Source of the DNA: Methanolinea sp.
GTDB taxonomy: Archaea; Halobacteriota; Methanomicrobia; Methanomicrobiales; Methanospirillaceae
Assembly: GCA_030055515.1 (NCBI GenBank)
Contig: JASFYI010000003.1
Coordinates: 1 to 64,000, forward strand
Length of the DNA: 64,000 bases
Reading direction: 5' to 3'
The position numbers and the translations under genes were made by a program. Each line of letters opens with the position of its first letter. Position 1 is the stretch's first letter. Positions 4,929-14,533 of the stretch are shown here, piece after piece. The notes below the pieces were generated by a model, which worked only from the letters and a program-made list of their open reading frames with translations, was not told the origin of the DNA and made no database searches.

Positions 4929-6893
4929 ATGCGCGTTCCATCGCCCGGCTTCCCGCGGGCAGGACGAAGGCCGAAAATCCCGGCCGGCGAGGCCATCGTC
5001 CGCCTCGTCCTCCTCGCCTGCGCCTCTTTCGCCGTCGTCGCGATATTCTTCATCATCGCATTCCTCCTCCGCGACGGGTACCCCGCGTTCCTCGAGGGGG
5101 GAATCGGGGACTTCCTCCTCGGCCCCGTCTGGAACCCGACGAGTTACCCGGCGGGGAAGTACGGGATCCTCCCCCTCGTCGCGGGAACGCTCCTCGTGAC
5201 CGCCGGCGCGATGGCCGTCTCCGTCCCCCTCGGCATCGCGTGCGCGATCTGCATTGCGCGGCTCGCGCCCCCCGCAGTGAAGAGCGTCGTGAAACCCGCG
5301 GTCGAGCTCCTCGCCGGGATCCCCTCGGTCGTGTACGGGTTCTTCGGTCTCATCGTCCTCACCGACTGGATACGCGTCACCTTCGGCGTCCCCTCGGGAG
5401 AGTCATGGCTCGCGGGGTCCCTCCTCCTTGGCGTCATGGCACTGCCGACGATCATCAGCGTCTCGGAGGACGCAATCTCCTGCGTGCCGAGGGAGTACGC
5501 GGAGGGGAGCCTCGCGCTCGGGGCGACCCACTGGCAGACCATCTCGGGGGTCGTCGTTCCCGCTGCCCTGCCGGGGATCTCGGCGGCGGTCATCCTCGGG
5601 ATGGGGAGGGCGATCGGGGAGACCATGGCGGTCCTCATGGTGACCGGGAATGCCGCCGTCATCCCCTCGCCGCTCTGGAACGTCCTCTCCCCCGTGAGGA
5701 CTCTCACCGGGACGCTCGGGATCGAGATGGGGGAGGTCGCGGTCGGGACCACACACTACCACGCCCTCTTCGGCGTCGCGGTGGTCCTCCTCGCGATCAC
5801 GCTCCTCGTCAACCTCGCGGCGAACGCGGTCATCGGGAGGATAAGGGAGAGCTACGTGCCCGGCAGGCAGTCGTGCGCGGCCACCCGGGGGAGGGAGAGG
5901 GGTCCCCTCGTCCCCCCCGCGGTCACCGGGAGGGCGGGCAAGGTCCTCGCGGTCGCGGCCCTCTCCCTCGTCGGGCTCCCCCTCGCGGGGCCCGCCGGTT
6001 TCGCGGGGTTCGCCCTCCTCTTTGCATTCATCGCGGTCGCGTGGCAGAAAGTCCCGCCGAAGGCCGCGGAGAAAGTCGCGTTCTCCCTCCTCTTCGCGGC
6101 GACGGCCGCGGTCCTCGCGGCGCTCGCCGTCATCCTCTGGGACATCCTCTGGAACGGCCTCCCCGCACTCTCGTGGGAGTTCCTCACGCAGTCCCCGCGC
6201 GACCTCGGGCGCGGCGGCGGGATCTTCCCCGCGATCGTCGGGACCCTGTACCTCGTCGCGGGGGCCATCGCGCTCGCCCTCCCGGTGGGGTTCGGCGCCG
6301 CGATCTACCTCTCGGAGTACAGGGGGGAGGGGCGCGTCACGAGGATCGTCCGGACCGGGACCGATCTCCTCAACGGGACGCCCTCGATCGTCTTCGGCCT
6401 CTTCGGGTTCTCGTTCCTCGTCCTGTTCCTGAACTTCGGCGTCAGCCTGCTCGCGGGGCAGGTCACCCTCGCGCTCATGATCCTCCCCACCATCATCAGG
6501 ACGACGGAGGAGTCGCTCAAGAGCGTGCCCGTCTCCCTCCGCGAGGGGAGCCTCGCGCTCGGAGCGACGCAGTGGCAGACGATCTCGCGCGTCGTCGTCC
6601 CGCCGGCGGTCCCGGGGATGATCACGGGGGCGATCCTCTCGATCGGGCGGGCCGCGGGGGAGACCGCCCCGATCCTCTTCACCGCGGTCGTCTTCTCCCA
6701 GAGGTTCCTCCCCGACTCCCCGTTCTCGCCGGTGATGGCCCTGCCCTACCACCTCTTCATCCTCGCGACGAACGTGCCGGGGGCCGAGGCGCAGAAGTAC
6801 GGGACCGCCGTCGTCCTCCTCCTCCTCGTGATCCTCTTCTACGCGCTCGCGATCGCGATCCGGATGCACTACAGCAGGAAGGTCCGGTGGTGA
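4929..6893 (+). CDS. Fused phosphate permease PstC-PstA
   Basis: 654 residues with two complete ABC permease domains in one chain. The first (about residues 15-305) is PstC-like with the EAA loop EGSLALGATHWQTIS near 190. A linker of about 90 residues with extra hydrophobic helices precedes the second (about 390-650), which is PstA-like with EGSLALGATQWQTIS near 535 and GRAAGETAPILFT. Normal PstC and PstA are separate proteins of about 300 residues each that pair in the membrane, so this is a natural fusion of the heterodimer. It lies 37 bp after pstS. The ATP-binding subunit gene, normally next, is not there. Confidence 0.92.
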   Translation: MRVPSPGFPRAGRRPKIPAGEAIVRLVLLACASFAVVAIFFIIAFLLRDGYPAFLEGGIGDFLLGPVWNPTSYPAGKYGILPLVAGTLLVTAGAMAVSVPLGIACAICIARLAPPAVKSVVKPAVELLAGIPSVVYGFFGLIVLTDWIRVTFGVPSGESWLAGSLLLGVMALPTIISVSEDAISCVPREYAEGSLALGATHWQTISGVVVPAALPGISAAVILGMGRAIGETMAVLMVTGNAAVIPSPLWNVLSPVRTLTGTLGIEMGEVAVGTTHYHALFGVAVVLLAITLLVNLAANAVIGRIRESYVPGRQSCAATRGRERGPLVPPAVTGRAGKVLAVAALSLVGLPLAGPAGFAGFALLFAFIAVAWQKVPPKAAEKVAFSLLFAATAAVLAALAVILWDILWNGLPALSWEFLTQSPRDLGRGGGIFPAIVGTLYLVAGAIALALPVGFGAAIYLSEYRGEGRVTRIVRTGTDLLNGTPSIVFGLFGFSFLVLFLNFGVSLLAGQVTLALMILPTIIRTTEESLKSVPVSLREGSLALGATQWQTISRVVVPPAVPGMITGAILSIGRAAGETAPILFTAVVFSQRFLPDSPFSPVMALPYHLFILATNVPGAEAQKYGTAVVLLLLVILFYALAIAIRMHYSRKVRW

Positions 6894-7010
6894 ACGGCGT
6901 GGAGGGGAGATCCCCGCGGGGGGACCGCGGTCGCGGGGTGCCGGGGGCAACCCGTATGTGCATGGACACCGAAGAAGACAGGTACGCAGGGGGGAGAATC
7001 CCGGTGACCG

Positions 7011-7018
7011 GGTGAGGT
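7011..7018 (+). promoter_or_regulatory. Ribosome binding site fixing the phoU start
   Basis: GGTGAGGT stands eight bases before the ATG at 7027. It argues against the in-frame ATG at 6958, whose extra 23 Arg/Gly-rich residues look non-coding. Confidence 0.6.
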
Positions 7019-7026
7019 ACCAAGCC

Positions 7027-7683
7027 ATGAAAGACAAGTTCCACGACGAGATGGCCAAGATGAAGGCTGATGTCCTCGGGATGGGGCTCTTTGCGGAGCA
7101 GATGCTCTCGGACGCGATGAGAGCGCTCAAGGAGAACGACCTTGCACTCGCGAGGGATGTCAAGGAGCGGAAGGCCGCGCTCTCCGAGAAGAACGACGCG
7201 CTCGAGGAGGAAGCGTACAGGATGATCGCGCTCTACCAGCCGGTCGCGCGCGACATGCGCGCGATCGCGTGCGCGCTCAAGGTGATCTCCTCTGCCGAGC
7301 GGATCGGCAGGTACGGGAAAGACATCGCGGGGATCGTCATCACCCTCGGTGACCCCCGGCCGCACGACCTCGTCTCTGCCCTCTGCCTGCCCCACATGGG
7401 CGACCTCGTGATCGCGATGATCCACGACGCACTCAAGGCGTACGAGACCGGCGACCTCTCGCTCATCGCGCGCCACTCCGAGAGGGACGACGTGGTCGAC
7501 GCCCTCCGCCACACCATCTTCCGCGAGGGGCTCACCTACATGATGGAGGACCCGCGCACGATCACGCGCTGCACGTACTACATCATGGTCGTCCGCTACC
7601 TCGAGCGGTGCGCCGACCACTCCTGCAAGATCGCGGAGAAGGTCCACTACATGGTCACCGGGGAGCGGATCGAGATCAAGTGA
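7027..7683 (+). CDS. phoU: PhoU phosphate-transport regulator
   Basis: 218 residues, almost all helical, with two PhoU repeats: FHDEMAKMKADVLGMGLFAEQML at the start and VVDALRHTIFREGLTYMMEDPR in the second half. The metal-binding E/D-rich motifs (RIGRYGKDI; RYLERCADHSCKIAE) are visible. PhoU restrains Pst transport and, in bacteria, signals phosphate status. It lies 133 bp after the permease fusion, where pstB would be expected first. Full-length single PhoU. Confidence 0.92.
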   Translation: MKDKFHDEMAKMKADVLGMGLFAEQMLSDAMRALKENDLALARDVKERKAALSEKNDALEEEAYRMIALYQPVARDMRAIACALKVISSAERIGRYGKDIAGIVITLGDPRPHDLVSALCLPHMGDLVIAMIHDALKAYETGDLSLIARHSERDDVVDALRHTIFREGLTYMMEDPRTITRCTYYIMVVRYLERCADHSCKIAEKVHYMVTGERIEIK

Positions 7684-7881
7684 GGGGCGCAAAGGGTCGT
7701 TTCCCTCCCCTGCGGGCAAGACCGCCGCGGCGCGCGGGAACGGGAGAGCGGGCAGCGGAACTCCCTCCCCGCCGCGGTTCCCGGGGAAATTCCTCCCCGG
7801 GCAACCGGAAATCTTTAATCGATCAATACTCAACCGCTGCTAAGTACTAGGACCGGCCGCCGCGGCGCGGCCCGTGGTCTT

Positions 7882-8745
7882 ATGCCGGAACCCGGAACCG
7901 AAAACGAAGACGACCCCCACGATAGCGAGCATCGTTCCTTTTTCGCGCGGGCTGCAGCCGGAGTAGATCTTTTTCGCCCCCCGTTCTCCTCCCGGAAACC
8001 GGACGCGGGGGGAGGCCCGGGTGCGACTATCCCCACGGGACAGGCGTTCCAGGGGACGGACCGCCACGCTGCCGGGAGAAGACCCGCGCCGCGGGGTGGA
8101 GGGGGAAACGGGAGGTTCCACCTCGCGCGCGGCGGGATCTACACCGTGCATGCGGGCGGCACCACGTGGTTTGTCTCGGAGGATTACTCCTACAGGAGCG
8201 CCACGTACTACGCCGTCCTTTCCCGCGAGCTCGCGGGCGACGCGGTCGCACCGGGCACGGAATCGATGCTCGACGCGTTCGTCGTTCCCGTGTGCCTCGA
8301 GCGCGCCGCACGGCACGGCATCCCCGTCGCCCCGTACACCATCGCGCACACGTGCCCTGCCGCCCCCGCCATCGTGTACGGCCTGAACTACTTCTCCCGC
8401 GCATCCCACTTCGAGGTCCTCGCGGGGGACGGGCGCGACCAGGGGAAGGTGCGCCACGCGACGAGCAACGGGAAGTACCCCTGCTGCGCGCAGGAGTTCC
8501 CGCGGGGGAGCGGGATTGTCCGGGCGATCTCCGTCTTCGGGAGGACACTTTCACCGTTCCCCGGGGTGCAGGAGATCGCAGGGCAGGTCTTCTCGTGCTT
8601 CCGCGTCCCGCTCGTCGAACTCGTCTGCATCTCCGGCCCGGGGGGGACCGTCCTCTCCTCGCTCTGCCCGGTGCGCTACTCCCGTCTTGCGCCCGGCGAG
8701 CGGCGCCTCCTCAAGGCGCACATCCTCGGACAGGCATTCCTATGA
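7882..8745 (+). CDS. RLAN-domain protein (partner of RimK-like ATP-grasp ligase)
   Basis: The C-terminal 200 residues contain WFVSEDYSYRSATYYAVL and ESMLDAFVVPVCLERAA, resembling the RLAN domain (RimK-like ATP-grasp N-terminal domain). That domain is usually fused in front of an ATP-grasp ligase and is predicted to act in small-peptide synthesis. Here it is a separate protein whose stop overlaps the ATP-grasp start by ATGA at 8742. The first 80 residues (from the ATG at 7882) are low-complexity Pro/Gly/Arg and may be untranslated. No Met lies between, and a GTG at 8146 is the main alternative start. Substrate unknown. Confidence 0.65.
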   Translation: MPEPGTENEDDPHDSEHRSFFARAAAGVDLFRPPFSSRKPDAGGGPGATIPTGQAFQGTDRHAAGRRPAPRGGGGNGRFHLARGGIYTVHAGGTTWFVSEDYSYRSATYYAVLSRELAGDAVAPGTESMLDAFVVPVCLERAARHGIPVAPYTIAHTCPAAPAIVYGLNYFSRASHFEVLAGDGRDQGKVRHATSNGKYPCCAQEFPRGSGIVRAISVFGRTLSPFPGVQEIAGQVFSCFRVPLVELVCISGPGGTVLSSLCPVRYSRLAPGERRLLKAHILGQAFL

Positions 8746-9611
8746 GCCGCCTCGGGATATTCGTCGACCGGAAAACCCTCTCCTCCTCGGACCAGCTCAA
8801 CGCCCTGATCCGGTGCAGGGACACCGCCGAGGGGATGGGGCACTCCGTCGAGTTCATCTTCCCGGTCGACATGAGGAAGGTCCGGCAGGTGGACGGCCTC
8901 TTCATACGGGCGAGAACCGACCCGATGAACGTCACGTACGTCGCGTCGAGGATCGCCGCGTCATCCGGTATCCCGGTCATCGACGATCCCGATTCCATCC
9001 GGGTCTGCTCCGACAAGGTGAACATGTACATGCACCTCCACCGGGCCGGGATCCCGATCCCGCGGACGCTCTTCATCGCGAAGGACGATATCCACCCGAC
9101 GCGCGTCCGCGAGATCATGAACGGCCTCGGGACGCCCCTCGTCCTGAAGGAACCCTCGACCTCCTTCTCGCTCCGGGTGGAACGGGTGGACGACCCGGTC
9201 GCCTTCATGCGGGTCGCGCGGCGCTACCTCAAGATGTCTGACTGGGTCGTCGCACAGGAGTACGTGCGGAGCACGTACGACTGGAGGATAGGGGTCCTCC
9301 GCGGGGAGTTCCTCTACGCTTGCAAGTACATCATCCCGCCGCAGACCTTCAAGATACAGGACTCGGTGAACGGGCACCTCGTCTCCTGCACCGTCGAGAG
9401 CGTCCCGGAAGACGCCGTCCCCGACCACGTGAGGGCGCTCGGCGTCGCGGCGGGAAGGGCGATCGGGGACGGGCTCTACGGCGTCGACATAAAGGACGGG
9501 GAGAGACCGTGCGTGATAGAGGTGAACGACAATCCCTCCCTCGAGGGCGGGGAGGACACGTTCTACCCCCACGTGTACAGGGAGATCGTCTGCGCCCTCC
9601 TCGGCACATGA
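8742..9611 (+). CDS. RimK-family ATP-grasp amidoligase
   Basis: 289 residues. After a Rossmann-like N domain (RLGIFVDRKTLSSSDQLNAL) come the ATP-grasp parts: VNMYMHLHRAGIPIPRT, the ATP-binding lysine strand PLVLKEPSTSFSL, VAQEYVRSTYDWRIGVL and the metal-binding end DGERPCVIEVNDNPSL. Such enzymes use ATP to join an amino group to a carboxylate through an acyl-phosphate. The segment after the lysine lacks the glycine-rich turn of canonical RimK. It overlaps both neighbours by ATGA, so it is translated with the RLAN protein and the Cys-cluster protein. The product is unknown. Confidence 0.85.
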   Translation: MSRLGIFVDRKTLSSSDQLNALIRCRDTAEGMGHSVEFIFPVDMRKVRQVDGLFIRARTDPMNVTYVASRIAASSGIPVIDDPDSIRVCSDKVNMYMHLHRAGIPIPRTLFIAKDDIHPTRVREIMNGLGTPLVLKEPSTSFSLRVERVDDPVAFMRVARRYLKMSDWVVAQEYVRSTYDWRIGVLRGEFLYACKYIIPPQTFKIQDSVNGHLVSCTVESVPEDAVPDHVRALGVAAGRAIGDGLYGVDIKDGERPCVIEVNDNPSLEGGEDTFYPHVYREIVCALLGT

Positions 9612-10129
9612 CCGGAAAGGGCGACGACCCGCCTGGATGGCAGGAGAGGGCGAGTGCCGTCTGCGGGGGGTGCGGGGGCCGGTGCTGCCACGAGGCTCGC
9701 CCCCCTCTCACCACCCGGCGGGTGACAATCCTCCTCCGGCGGGGTGTCGCGGAAGGGGACATCGAGTACGCGGGGTACTCCCGCATCCGGGCACGGGAGG
9801 ACGGGATGTGCGCATTGTGGGAGGCTGGCAGGTGCCGGGTCCACGACGTCAAGCCCGAGACGTGCCGGGCAGGCCCGTTCACGTTCGACGTGGAGGGGGG
9901 GACTGTCCGGGTATTCCTCAAGCACGAGTCCCGGTGCCCGCTCGTCTCCCTCCTGAAATCCGACCCCGACATGTTCAGGGCGCAGTTCAGGATCGCCGTG
10001 GAGAACATCCTCTCCCTCGCGGGGGCGCTCCCGCCAGGCGAACTCGCGACAATAAGCGCGATCCCTGAACCCGACTGCGACTTCGTCGCGGGGTTCCCGC
10101 TCCGCCCCCGCGGCAGGGGAGGCCCATGA
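9608..10129 (+). CDS. YkgJ-family cysteine-cluster protein
   Basis: 173 residues with the Cys signature of the YkgJ (CxxCxxCC) family: CGGCGGRCC near residue 19, then CALWEAGRCRVHDVKPETC with a following FTFDVEGG. The cysteines are expected to bind Zn or an Fe-S cluster. Its role is not known biochemically, and members often accompany peptide-modifying genes. ATGA overlaps with the ATP-grasp gene before and the GCS2 gene after place it firmly in the amidoligase operon, so an accessory or oxygenase-like step in the same pathway is a fair inference. Confidence 0.8.
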   Translation: MTGKGDDPPGWQERASAVCGGCGGRCCHEARPPLTTRRVTILLRRGVAEGDIEYAGYSRIRAREDGMCALWEAGRCRVHDVKPETCRAGPFTFDVEGGTVRVFLKHESRCPLVSLLKSDPDMFRAQFRIAVENILSLAGALPPGELATISAIPEPDCDFVAGFPLRPRGRGGP

Positions 10130-11247
10130 AGACCGGGACGGAACACGAGTATTCGATCAACAGTGCAGACTTCGTTCCCCTGCCCTGTTCCGACCGGATC
10201 CTCGCCGGGGCCGGGGGCACCCCCTATGGTGAAGTCCCGATGGCAGGTGCGACCATCGGAAAGGAACTCCAGAAGACAGTCCTCGAGTTCGTCCCCGCGT
10301 ACCCCCACCGCAGTATCCCCGTCCTTGAATCGCTCGTGTACTCCGGGATAAAGGAGTTCTCGAGGCGGTTTTCCGGCCGGTACACCCTCCTCGGCCTCGG
10401 GATGCACCCGACCCTCTCCCCTTCCCGCGACCTCGTCTGGGACCACGGCGACGCAGCGATCTACCGCGAGTACGACAGGCTGTTTGGCATCGCGCGGCAC
10501 GGGTGGGTGAACGTCCAGGCATTCCAGGTCAACCTCGAGTATAGGAGCGAGGGGCAGCTCGTCAGGATGTTCAACAGGGTGCGCGCACTCATGCCTTTCC
10601 TCGTCGCGGTCTCGGCCGCGTCCCCCTTCGTCGAGGGGCGGCTCACCGGGACGCTCGATTCCCGGCTCGTATATTACATGGAGAACCAGGCGAGGATCCC
10701 GGAGATCTGCGACGGGATCGTCACGCGGCCGATCGCGTCTGTCGACGACTACCGCGGGAGGCTCTGTCTCCTCTACGACCTCCTCCGGGAGGAGGGCGCG
10801 GATGCACTCTGCGAGGAGTGGGTCGCGTCATTCGGCGCGATCGTCCGGTTCAGCCGCCCCTGCATCGAGATAAAGGTCATGGACGAGCAGGAGTGCGTCC
10901 GCTCTGACATGGCGCTCTGCGCGTTTGCCCGGGCGCTCGTGCGTGCCCGGGATCTCCCCCTCGAGGAAGACTCCGACGCGCTCCGCGACCTCGTCGCGCA
11001 CGCGATCCGGCACGGGACCGCCGGCCTCGAGGACGATCTCTCCCGTCTCTACCGCCGCGCGACCGGTGCCGCCACGCCCGGGGAGAGGCACTACCTCCCC
11101 CTCGTCGGGGAGAGGATCCGGGGAGGGTGCCTCGCCGCCCTGCTCTCCCGGAGGTACAGGGAGACGGGAGATCTCCCCGGGATCATGCGCGATCTCGCGC
11201 GCTGCCTCGCGGAGAATCGGCCGTACAAGGGCGGGGAGGAGGAGTAG
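10126..11247 (+). CDS. GCS2-family glutamate-cysteine-ligase-like carboxylate-amine ligase
   Basis: 373 residues. The start KTGTEHEYSIN carries the paired acidic residues that bind Mg-ATP in the GCS2 (YbdK/EgtA-like) family. LLGLGMHPTLSPSRDLVW, WVNVQAFQVNLEY and CIEIKVMDEQECVRSDM match the family core. These enzymes form gamma-glutamyl-type amide bonds. Whether Glu and Cys are the substrates here cannot be read from sequence. ATGA overlap with the Cys-cluster gene makes it the fourth gene of the operon. Two different amidoligase folds in one operon imply at least two successive amide-forming steps. Confidence 0.82.
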   Translation: MKTGTEHEYSINSADFVPLPCSDRILAGAGGTPYGEVPMAGATIGKELQKTVLEFVPAYPHRSIPVLESLVYSGIKEFSRRFSGRYTLLGLGMHPTLSPSRDLVWDHGDAAIYREYDRLFGIARHGWVNVQAFQVNLEYRSEGQLVRMFNRVRALMPFLVAVSAASPFVEGRLTGTLDSRLVYYMENQARIPEICDGIVTRPIASVDDYRGRLCLLYDLLREEGADALCEEWVASFGAIVRFSRPCIEIKVMDEQECVRSDMALCAFARALVRARDLPLEEDSDALRDLVAHAIRHGTAGLEDDLSRLYRRATGAATPGERHYLPLVGERIRGGCLAALLSRRYRETGDLPGIMRDLARCLAENRPYKGGEEE

Positions 11248-11422
11248 ATCCCCTGCGGGACTGCCCGCCGGGACACGGGGAACGCGGGCAAACGGGACAG
11301 CGGATCCCTGCCATTGCAAGACGCGCAACGCCGCTCCCACGGGGTGTCGTCCGCGGAAAATCCATGGGCCGGCGGGGGAGAATACCCGGAGACGTCGGGA
11401 GATACGGAAAAAAGAGAAAGTC

Positions 11423-11587
11423 CTAGTACCGGGGCTTCCTGTGCTTGGGCAGGCACGCCCGGCAGTACACCGGCCTCCCCTCGGTGGGGACGAACGGTAC
11501 CTCGCATTCTGCTCCACAGTCCGCGCACACGGCCTTCGTCATCGTCCGGGGCCGGTCGAACCCGCCCCTGAAACCTCTCTCGTTCAT
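11423..11587 (-). CDS. Small CxxC-x17-CxxC zinc-ribbon protein
   Basis: 54 residues. The only clear element is CADC, seventeen residues, CRAC, followed by a basic tail LPKHRKPRY. I count 17 residues between the pairs, the spacing of the CxxC-x17-CxxC domain known from methanogens. It should bind one Zn and may contact nucleic acid. I chose the ATG at 11587 because a TATA box at 11640-11646 (minus strand) fits it. The longer frame to 11776 runs through the promoter. It converges on the amidoligase operon. Confidence 0.72.
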   Translation of the reverse strand: MNERGFRGGFDRPRTMTKAVCADCGAECEVPFVPTEGRPVYCRACLPKHRKPRY

Positions 11588-11639
11588 CTCTTTCCCTGAT
11601 GCAGTTTTGATCCTGCGCGTACGCGTGGGGGCGCAAGGG

Positions 11640-11646
11640 ATATATA
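11640..11646 (-). promoter_or_regulatory. TATA box for the CxxC-x17-CxxC gene
   Basis: TATATAT (minus strand reads CTATATATCCC) lies about 55 bp before the ATG at 11587, giving a leader of roughly 30 bases. Confidence 0.5.
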
Positions 11647-11734
11647 GGTGTGCATGGGGGTGGCGGGACGGGGCCGGGGGGAGGCAGAAACCCGGCACGC
11701 CGCGGCGGGGGCGGGGGGCGGGGCATCCACGGCA

Positions 11735-11788
11735 TTCCCTGCAACCCTGCAACACGATTCCCCATTTCCGCGGCATTGTTGCAGGGAA
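11735..11788. repeat. Inverted GTTGCAGGG repeats, left cluster
   Basis: CCCTGCAAC occurs at 11737-11745 and again at 11745-11753, and the reverse complement GTTGCAGGG at 11778-11786. TTCCCTGCAAC (11735-11745) and GTTGCAGGGAA (11778-11788) form a perfect 11-bp inverted repeat. The same word recurs in a denser array 270 bp to the right. Confidence 0.75.
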
Positions 11789-12010
11789 AAAGGGGGAATT
11801 TCCGTGCCTGAATTGTCAAACGGAGAATTTTAAGTCGTATCTCATTTTTCCCCTGCAGCACCCTGCGGATCACGTACACGCGCACGGGTGCGCGGGAGGT
11901 CTCCCGGCGCAGTACGTGATCCCGGATTTGTTTCAGGGTTCGTATGCATGTACATAAATTCGCGATGAAATAGCGTATTTTGCGAAAAAAATTGTTTTCC
12001 ACAGGAATTA
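11789..12010. other. AT-rich non-coding spacer between the two repeat clusters
   Basis: No gene is seen. The stretch is markedly AT-richer than the chromosome around it (for example 11795-11850 and 11940-12010, with runs of A and T and TTTTCCACAGGAATTAAAT just before the palindrome). Frames crossing it have no start signals or family motifs. Confidence 0.5.
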
Positions 12011-12933: not shown

Positions 12934-14191
12934 TTTAGCCCCCTCCATTTCTCTCACCAAAGATACGCATGATGATCACCTTAATTCACAATAAACAAGA
13001 GATTCACGCGCCTGGTGTAAAAGTACATTTCGAAAAACCCCTAAATCAAAAAATACGAAAGATTAAATCGTAAAATTGATCGTACTCGGAGGGGAATACA
13101 TATTTGGTGAAACGATGCATCCCTCTCTGGGAGGGGATCGCAATGACCCAAAATGGTTTCTCCTCGGACAGGTTCTCTCACTCGTCACCAGCCGTCCCGC
13201 CCAACAGGTATTTGCGAGAAACGAGATTGAGCCCATTCCCGCAGCTTTAGATGCAATCGCGATCGTTCTCACCGCGATGTTCTTCTCTTGTGATTGTTCC
13301 TTTGTCATCCAGGAATTGGTAAATCGCAGGAGACTCCGCAAATTTCTGGACATTCACACTGTTCCCACAGTCGATTCGGTTTATAAAACACTGAGCAGGT
13401 TCGATGAAACCCAGTTTATCTCCCTCGTGAACGGGATCCTCAATTCCTGTTGCACGAGGAGGAGGAGACGAGGGTGGAACACGTTTATCGTGGATGCAAC
13501 CGCGATTACCCTCGATTTGAATTGGTTCAGGAAAAAGTATACGAAGAAACAGTTGGAGAACAGGGACTACGCGTGGGGGTATTGTCCTACCCACGGCCAC
13601 TATATCGGCTACAAACTCACTCTCGCACTCGACGCGCATTCCCTGCGGCCGGTCTGTTTCCTGCTCCATCCGGGATCTCCCCACGATTCTGTCATTTTCC
13701 GGGAGATCGTGAGTGAATTGAAAAGGCGCAGAATCGCCCGGATCGGTGATACAATCGTCTTTGACAAGGGATACTACGCGTACGATAACTACGTGGAGGG
13801 AATCTTCGCGTTCAGCATCGTCCCGATGATTTTTACAAAGAAGAACTTTTCATTGTCCAAACTGCTCAGGAAACTCAATTTTCCCCTCTGGATTTTCGGG
13901 AGGTCTGATACGAAACAGCTCTTCCAGAGATACACTTCCCTGGCGCGCCGGTCGGTGATGTACCTCCGCGACGAGATCCAACTCGTGGAGAAGAGATCCC
14001 TCATTGAGGATGTCTTCAAAATGGCGAAAAATGCATTCGGATTGAAGAAAATCTACAAATATACGACGCGATCTGTGAAAAAGACAGTCTGCCTGAATGT
14101 ACTTTTACACGGACTCGTTATTTCTCTGGGATTTGGCGATAAGATTCAATTACAACGGTTGGCTGAGTGGTAATTTAGGGAGGGGGTTAGA
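12934..14191 (+). mobile_element. Insertion sequence with DDE transposase
   Basis: An element of about 1.26 kb. The proposed left end TTTAGCCCCCTCC (12934-12946) and the reverse complement of the right end, TCTAACCCCCTCC (14179-14191), agree at 11 of 13 positions and bracket one full-length transposase gene. Base composition is much richer in AT than in the flanking genes, as expected for recent arrival. I see no convincing target-site duplication, so the exact ends may be off by a few bases. Confidence 0.65.
13076..14173 (+). CDS. DDE transposase of the insertion sequence
   Basis: 365 residues with an RNase-H-like DDE layout: TFIVDATAITLDLNWF (first Asp), IGDTIVFDKGYYAYDN (second Asp) and RSLIEDVFKMAKNAFGLKK (Glu). 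The chain is uninterrupted and basic, so it may be active. The family is within the IS4/IS5-like superfamily, but I cannot assign it further by eye. Start choice is open: TTG at 13076 gives the longest form, and ATG at 13115 follows GGAGG by about 20 bases. Codon use is AT-rich compared with the neighbouring chromosome. The last 60 codons are duplicated downstream. Confidence 0.85.
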   Translation: MIVLGGEYIFGETMHPSLGGDRNDPKWFLLGQVLSLVTSRPAQQVFARNEIEPIPAALDAIAIVLTAMFFSCDCSFVIQELVNRRRLRKFLDIHTVPTVDSVYKTLSRFDETQFISLVNGILNSCCTRRRRRGWNTFIVDATAITLDLNWFRKKYTKKQLENRDYAWGYCPTHGHYIGYKLTLALDAHSLRPVCFLLHPGSPHDSVIFREIVSELKRRRIARIGDTIVFDKGYYAYDNYVEGIFAFSIVPMIFTKKNFSLSKLLRKLNFPLWIFGRSDTKQLFQRYTSLARRSVMYLRDEIQLVEKRSLIEDVFKMAKNAFGLKKIYKYTTRSVKKTVCLNVLLHGLVISLGFGDKIQLQRLAEW

Positions 14192-14332
14192 CATTCTTCA
14201 TTCCCTCTGCGTTATCGGTAAGGTAATGTTCTACCAAGTCTTTACTAATCATTGCCCTGTATTCCTCCGTTTCTGCAATCTACTGTAGGATACAGGGTCG
14301 TTTCAATTTTACAGCTTTATAGGTACACTACC

Positions 14333-14533
14333 AAGAGATCCCTCATCGAGGATGTCTTCAAAACGGCGAAAAATGCATTCGGTTTGAAGAGGATTCACAA
14401 GTATACGACGCGATCTGTGAAAAAGACGGTCTGCCTGAATATACTTTTACTCGGGCTCGTTATTTCTCTGGGATTTGGCGATAAGATTCAATTACAACGG
14501 TTGGCTGAGTGGTGATTTGGAGAGGGGGTTAAC
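14333..14533 (+). mobile_element. Truncated second copy of the insertion-sequence right end
   Basis: 201 bp that align without gaps to 13991-14191, with about 16-17 base differences counted by eye. It encodes RSLIEDVFKTAKNAFGLKR through the transposase C-terminus to QLQRLAEW and a TGA stop, then the same terminal sequence (AGAGGGGGTTAAC). The 5' part is missing, so it cannot be expressed as a working transposase. The differences show it is an older or separately acquired copy, not a fresh duplication. Confidence 0.85.

Follow-up and report, generated by a model that had tools for sequence, protein, structure and literature searches.

The question raised by the first 64,000 nucleotides of contig JASFYI010000003.1 of Methanolinea sp. 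(forward strand, hereafter the window) is what is made by a compact four-gene operon, which encodes an RLAN protein (P0001), a RimK-type ATP-grasp ligase (P0002), a cysteine-cluster protein of the YkgJ type (P0003) and a GCS2 ligase (P0004). We give about an even chance to the reading that this is a conserved amidoligase module which makes a soluble, peptide-like, glutamate-containing metabolite, with RLAN as a degenerate partner of RimK. The idea that RLAN, RimK and GCS2 genes make peptides reportedly goes back to a comparative amidoligase study of 2009. The module, which has no product assigned to it, is kept in Archaeoglobaceae-type genomes and in Methanothrix and Methanoregula, two methane producers of wide distribution.

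The four open reading frames (ORFs) and the ATGA overlaps that join them at 8742, 9608 and 10126 lie exactly where the preliminary description of this DNA had placed them. Its family assignments hold as well, as all four proteins are above the Pfam cut-offs: P0002 matches RimK PF08443 with 25.7 bits (cut-off 21), P0003 matches CxxCxxCC PF03692 with 36.5 bits (cut-off 23) and P0004 matches GCS2 PF04107 with 108.7 bits (cut-off 21). As a single sequence P0001 is borderline for RLAN PF14401 (25.1 bits, cut-off 25.0), although across the family the assignment is clear, with 22 of 22 aligned homologues matching PF14401 at E <= 0.01 (best 1.4e-23). None of P0001-P0004 reaches an NCBIfam cut-off, and the absence of any curated equivalog agrees with the earlier suggestion of an undescribed pathway. 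The source genome (G000; 1.76 Mb, 5 contigs) has a single match to P0002, and P0004 is the only GCS2 found in it; two further matches to the RimK profile fall on an MptN-like gene (L187) and on an ORF resembling, by eye, a biotin carboxylase (L188). In the Rfam scan of the window a single tRNA was the sole match, therefore the window holds no known riboswitch.

The gene order of the module is kept far beyond chance. The GCS2 alignment was scanned against 84,980 species genomes, and the best 80 loci, all of them archaeal by title, were analysed; they come from Methanolinea, Methanoregula, other Methanoregulaceae, Methanothrix/Methanosaeta, Methanomassiliicoccales and one contig titled Ca. Methanoperedens, whose GCS2 is 49% identical to that of the window. 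A same-strand RimK gene lies immediately 5' of GCS2 in 71 of these 80 loci, the Cys-cluster gene sits between the two in 61 of these 71, and RLAN is directly 5' of RimK in 65 of the 71; five loci end at a contig edge and two have no RimK within reach. The genes thus stay together in relatives, and as P0001 also proved to be of the RLAN family, neither of the two outcomes named in the preliminary description as refuting it was observed. The notion of a strict four-gene unit has to be relaxed: the YkgJ gene has no match in 10/71 loci, therefore RLAN, RimK and GCS2 form the core, and YkgJ is a looser member which is dispensable in some relatives. Among the Methanomassiliicoccales-titled loci, L153 and L163 have RimK and GCS2 with no RLAN match just upstream, and L156 and L160 have YkgJ and GCS2 with no RimK in reach.

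The best evidence for a functional link comes from genomes in which the order has changed. Of 393 genomes surveyed in the phylum, 56 have P0002 and 51 have P0004, with both in 49 (the lists were compared by hand). The Archaeoglobaceae-type genomes (group f9) have the same genes in changed order and strand, in some of them (e.g., G204, G228, G293) on separate contigs, and in the Ca. Methanoperedens-titled locus (L123) the module genes are convergent. Of the groups named here, f9 is presumably Archaeoglobaceae, f14 Methanocellaceae and f22 Methanotrichaceae. Since the partnership is kept through repeated re-arrangement, and also on a Legionella plasmid where RLAN and RimK are fused, a joint function is indicated, and the proposal of two amide-forming enzymes acting together is supported, with RimK present in 49/51 GCS2 genomes.

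In P0002 the ATP/metal-type residues K92, K136, D249, E260 and N262 are invariant across 23 aligned sequences. The protein stays below the NCBIfam equivalogs for MptN (47.7 against 350 bits), LysX (61 against 275.6) and S6-RimK (24.9 against 331), and with 69.2 bits it does not reach the RimK subfamily cut-off of 143.4. The model of P0004 matches both YbdK (Z 37.4) and plant glutamate-cysteine ligase (GCL; Z 37.0) in whole-chain fold, and the GTEHE, QxN and SPxxEG...R motifs are common with plant GCL; as these motifs and the fold are kept, ATP-dependent activation of glutamate is likely. Its scores are likewise low for the YbdK family (41.9 against 176.4 bits), plant GCL (28.9 against 463) and EgtA (17 against 370.8). 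After SPxxEG...R the GCS2 clade of P0004 has a motif of its own, RxxxYxxNQxxIPxI(C/S), which is also present in a Legionella GCS2, and this conserved motif in the expected acceptor region makes cysteine unlikely as the acceptor of P0004. P0003 has a CX2CX3CC cluster and eight invariant cysteines (19, 22, 26, 27, 68, 76, 86, 110) and by this pattern probably carries an Fe-S cluster; solved structures searched with the YkgJ profile gave chance matches only.

For the RLAN protein, the AlphaFold model of P0001, made with 22 sequences, is confident for residues ~80-286, while the first 75 residues lie outside the RLAN fold, with a predicted local distance difference test score (pLDDT) mostly <50. 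In Foldseek, the best match of the RLAN model was ArgX bound to LysW (6.5e-10), followed by RimK, LysX and others, and the 50 matches listed all fell to ATP-grasp enzymes or, as with synapsin, to their relatives. VIA-align against RimK gave Z 12.3 (4.7 Å, 198 residues), with many ATP-grasps tied within 1. By these models RLAN probably has an ATP-grasp fold. In a forced alignment with RimK, collinear and non-significant, counterparts of the catalytic lysine and of the Mg-binding Asp/Glu/Asn appear to be missing from RLAN. Because RLAN is ATP-grasp-like with its catalytic residues apparently gone, and P0002 retains them, the two may form a dead/live pair, encoded by separate genes in archaea and as one fusion protein in bacteria; RLAN would probably be a degenerate, non-catalytic partner of RimK and not a separate enzyme. 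If true, a domain otherwise known solely by its position before RimK would be identified structurally, and RLAN-RimK would be a pair of one dead and one live enzyme.

Taken together, P0004 would use ATP to activate glutamate at its side-chain carboxylate and join it to an amine, probably not that of cysteine, giving a gamma-glutamyl amide. As the live member of an RLAN-RimK complex, P0002 would form a second amide bond; P0001, whose bacterial counterpart is fused to RimK, would be its degenerate ATP-grasp partner, and P0003, probably with its Fe-S cluster, may carry out an accessory modification or redox step. Glutamate as the donor, like all substrates named here, is what we infer. The more specific products suggested earlier, a compatible solute, redox thiol or metallophore, found no support.

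Several points weigh against this proposal. The RimK family includes protein-modifying enzymes, so that a protein target is possible. Seven surveyed genomes, namely four of f14 (Methanocella-type), two of f36 and G002, where a GCS2 search of the genome found none, carry RLAN-RimK without GCS2, therefore the two reactions can be uncoupled. In addition, the profile-profile comparison of RLAN with RimK was not significant with shallow or deeper profiles (E 0.017-0.15), and the kinship of RLAN with ATP-grasp enzymes therefore rests on predicted structure; solved structures searched with the RLAN profile gave no match.

The start of the operon needs a second look. In the window, gene 1 opens with an acidic motif in frame with RLAN; in the nearest relative, L052 (RimK 83% identical), the same motif is a separate upstream small ORF. 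In L052 and eight more Methanolinea-type loci this start, M[PS]EPExExDDDPHxRV, belongs to a 40-44-codon ORF of its own in another frame, whose stop coincides or overlaps with the start codon of RLAN (TGATG or ATGA), and a TTTAA-type box lies 5' of it at similar spacing to that in the window in 8 Methanolinea-type relatives. At the same place, Methanoregula loci have a MNECLNSDDEDEENHR-like ORF and Methanothrix loci a EEIQISENEMASDPDRHRSL-like ORF. A loose motif, picked after inspection of the data so that its counts describe and do not test, is present in the upstream regions of 34/45 Methanoregulaceae and 15/26 Methanotrichaceae loci (shuffles 2.3 and 2.0, reverse strand 3 and 0, respectively), and in 26 and 14 of these regions the stop falls within a few bases of a start codon in the RLAN frame. 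An independent test comes from the pattern of codon changes. By codon position (1/2/3), pairwise differences numbered 17/16/53 in Methanolinea and 200/143/480 in Methanothrix, and single changes in the proposed frame were synonymous to nonsynonymous as 49:29 and 253:214, compared with 9:61 and 61:358 in the next frame. Judged by this pattern the small ORF is coding and translated, and a non-coding RNA element is ruled out, given that the third-position excess and the mostly synonymous changes appear only in the proposed frame. Hence the claim that no precursor peptide gene is present needs qualification: a small coding ORF, fused here, precedes RLAN in most relatives, the operon start had been misread, and the encoded small peptide is a candidate subunit, ligand or substrate. 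The RLAN proteins of f14, f36 and f9 begin with similar acidic segments in frame (VSEDDDEAD..., VSEDEDDSD..., VGEGDEEKS...), which, compared by eye, suggests common descent and that the small ORF is a split-off segment of RLAN. The in-frame fusion in the window is either a real change or a sequencing error in one assembly.

Other explanations have to be weighed against a glutamate-containing peptide-like product. A thiol pathway, in which GCS2 makes gamma-glutamylcysteine and the ATP-grasp ligase extends it to a glutathione-like thiol, would suit the fold and N-terminal motifs that P0004 shares with plant GCL. We consider it unlikely, as P0004 is far under all GCL, EgtA and YbdK cut-offs, its clade has RxxxYxxNQxxIPxI(C/S) where GCLs have other residues, and P0002 has no glutathione-synthetase match in NCBIfam. 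The published record points both ways: according to one review, methanogens, Archaeoglobi and Thermoplasmata have matches to the GshA family, given there without RLAN-RimK context, but five methanogens have no glutathione or gamma-glutamylcysteine (PMC7278568). The small acidic peptide brings up another scheme, that it is the substrate or carrier to which the ATP-grasp and GCS2 enzymes add residues, as ArgX and LysX do on LysW. A translated, conserved small ORF adjoining the ligases in two families, and ArgX bound to LysW as the top match of RLAN, would agree with this; however, the peptide is free to drift in its C-terminal half, and the in-frame RLAN N-terminal motif of other archaea and of the window better fits a split-off RLAN segment. 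We hold it to be unlikely, and with equal reserve we regard its wider form, a peptide-scaffolded archaeal pathway of a dead/live ATP-grasp pair plus GCS2 that Methanoregulaceae would share with Methanothrix and that would occur in fused form elsewhere.

Tail glutamylation of methanofuran, tetrahydromethanopterin or F420 appears most improbable. The RimK relatives MptN and CofF do glutamylate cofactor tails, and GCS2 chemistry would suit gamma-glutamyl chains, yet P0002 reaches 47.7 bits where the MptN cut-off is 350, G000 has its separate MptN-like gene, Legionella has RLAN-RimK with GCS2, and the module is missing from many genomes of the same order. Methanomassiliicoccales-titled contigs carry parts of it too (L153, L163, L156, L160), and these organisms are not known to have a methanofuran/methanopterin pathway. 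Modification of a protein, in which RLAN-RimK would add glutamate or peptides and GCS2 would be a second, branching or isopeptide ligase, takes its appeal from bacterial RimK, which modifies ribosomal protein S6 (PMC12239564), and from the likeness of the P0004 model to the Pup ligase PafA (Z 20.3). We rate it as unlikely, since there is no dedicated target gene besides the small ORF and the RimK-family score of P0002 (69.2) is below the subfamily cut-off (143.4).

Table 1. Features of the operon and of its start in the window.
Feature	Position	Strand	Basis or remark
Gene 1, RLAN protein P0001 (287 residues)	7882-8745	+	ORF list, Pfam, AlphaFold, Foldseek, VIA-align, forced alignment
Gene 2, RimK-type ATP-grasp ligase P0002 (289 residues)	8742-9611	+	Pfam, NCBIfam, alignment
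Gene 3, CxxCxxCC (YkgJ-type) protein P0003 (173 residues)	9608-10129	+	Pfam, alignment
Gene 4, GCS2 ligase P0004 (373 residues), YbdK/plant GCL fold	10126-11247	+	Pfam, alignment, structure model
TATA-like box CTTTAAT, 63-69 bp 5' of ATG 7882	7813-7819	+	Putative function
Acidic motif MPEPGTENEDDPHDSEHRSFF at the N-terminus, conserved, here fused to RLAN in frame	7882-7944	+	Separate small ORF in most relatives
Linker of gene 1, unconserved, predicted disordered	7945-8118	+	pLDDT mostly <50; unalignable
ATP-grasp-like fold of gene 1, residues ~80-286, probably catalytically dead	8119-8739	+	Predicted model

Regarding the neighbourhood, a link to phosphate transport through the upstream pst-phoU genes was considered and rejected as functional evidence, since this is regional synteny: it is present mainly in Methanolinea-type loci and in L109, L179, L036, L089 and L051/L170, and was not seen in Methanoregula or Methanothrix loci. 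In the window, the upstream pst operon (4929-6893 and 6958-7683) has no pstB between pstCA and phoU, the place it occupies in L032 and other relatives. Another contig holds a pstB-like gene (C2:259921-260673) with 81% identity to the one in L032. Permease genes lie near the module, of the APC type in many Methanoregulaceae loci and of the CitMHS type in some loci of Archaeoglobaceae and f3; they are suggestive of amino-acid or carboxylate transport, yet they are lineage-bound. The APC gene stands just 3' of the operon in many related loci, and none was seen there in the window. In G002 (L089) a CitMHS-type transporter follows RLAN-RimK in place of YkgJ and GCS2. Locus L098 has a second RimK-family ligase (10887-11798, minus strand; TIGR00768 254.8 bits, cut-off 143.4), adjoining a CitMHS-type transporter and the GCS2/YkgJ pair. 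Downstream in the window, a small ORF at 11423-11776 (minus strand) ending ADCGAECEVPFVPTEGRPVYCRACLPKHRKPRY encodes a Cys-rich, zinc-ribbon-like protein, and 13076-14173 holds a transposase-like ORF whose C-terminal part is repeated at 14252-14515; G+C falls to 0.52 around 13076-14515, and this region reads as an insertion element, possibly re-arranged.

Literature searches on RLAN, RimK with GCS2, RimK with FGase (the N-formylglutamate-amidohydrolase family) and inactive ATP-grasps returned nothing, and the literature searched yielded no account of the archaeal four-gene form, of the RLAN ATP-grasp fold or of the small ORF. The cysteine cluster of P0003 has a counterpart in the flagellin methylase FliB, which likewise has eight conserved cysteines and binds one [4Fe-4S] cluster (PMC8598068), a comparison made by cysteine count and cluster type, and unlike FliB, P0003 is a small, stand-alone protein. 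The closest known systems are bacterial RLAN-RimK fusions (PF14401+PF08443). On a Legionella adelaidensis plasmid (L181), such a fusion, a GCS2 gene as its direct neighbour and an FGase gene follow each other with overlapping ends, and archaeal and bacterial RLAN match by profile with 97.5% probability (E 7e-12). In contrast to the fusions, archaeal RLAN and RimK are separate genes, YkgJ replaces FGase, archaeal RLAN is ~50 residues longer and many archaea have the separate small ORF. Further fusions are seen at L182-L184 and L190-L192; in Azospirillum and Tistrella the gene preceding the fusion reads by eye as a GNAT acetyltransferase plus a C39-like peptidase. No additional copy of the Legionella GCS2 turned up when plasmids and phages were searched.

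The individual ligases show the same mixture of likeness and distance. LysX, ArgX, MptN and RimK belong to the ATP-grasp family and have ATP/metal-type residues in common with P0002; in contrast to them, P0002 is under every equivalog cut-off, would work with an RLAN partner, and has (F/W)K(I/V)... where RimK has its N-xx-GG loop. P0004 likewise shares the whole-chain fold (Z 37) and the GTEHE and SPxxEG...R motifs with YbdK and plant GCL, and differs from them by an identity of only 16-18%, by its own motif in the expected acceptor region and by its linkage to RLAN-RimK.

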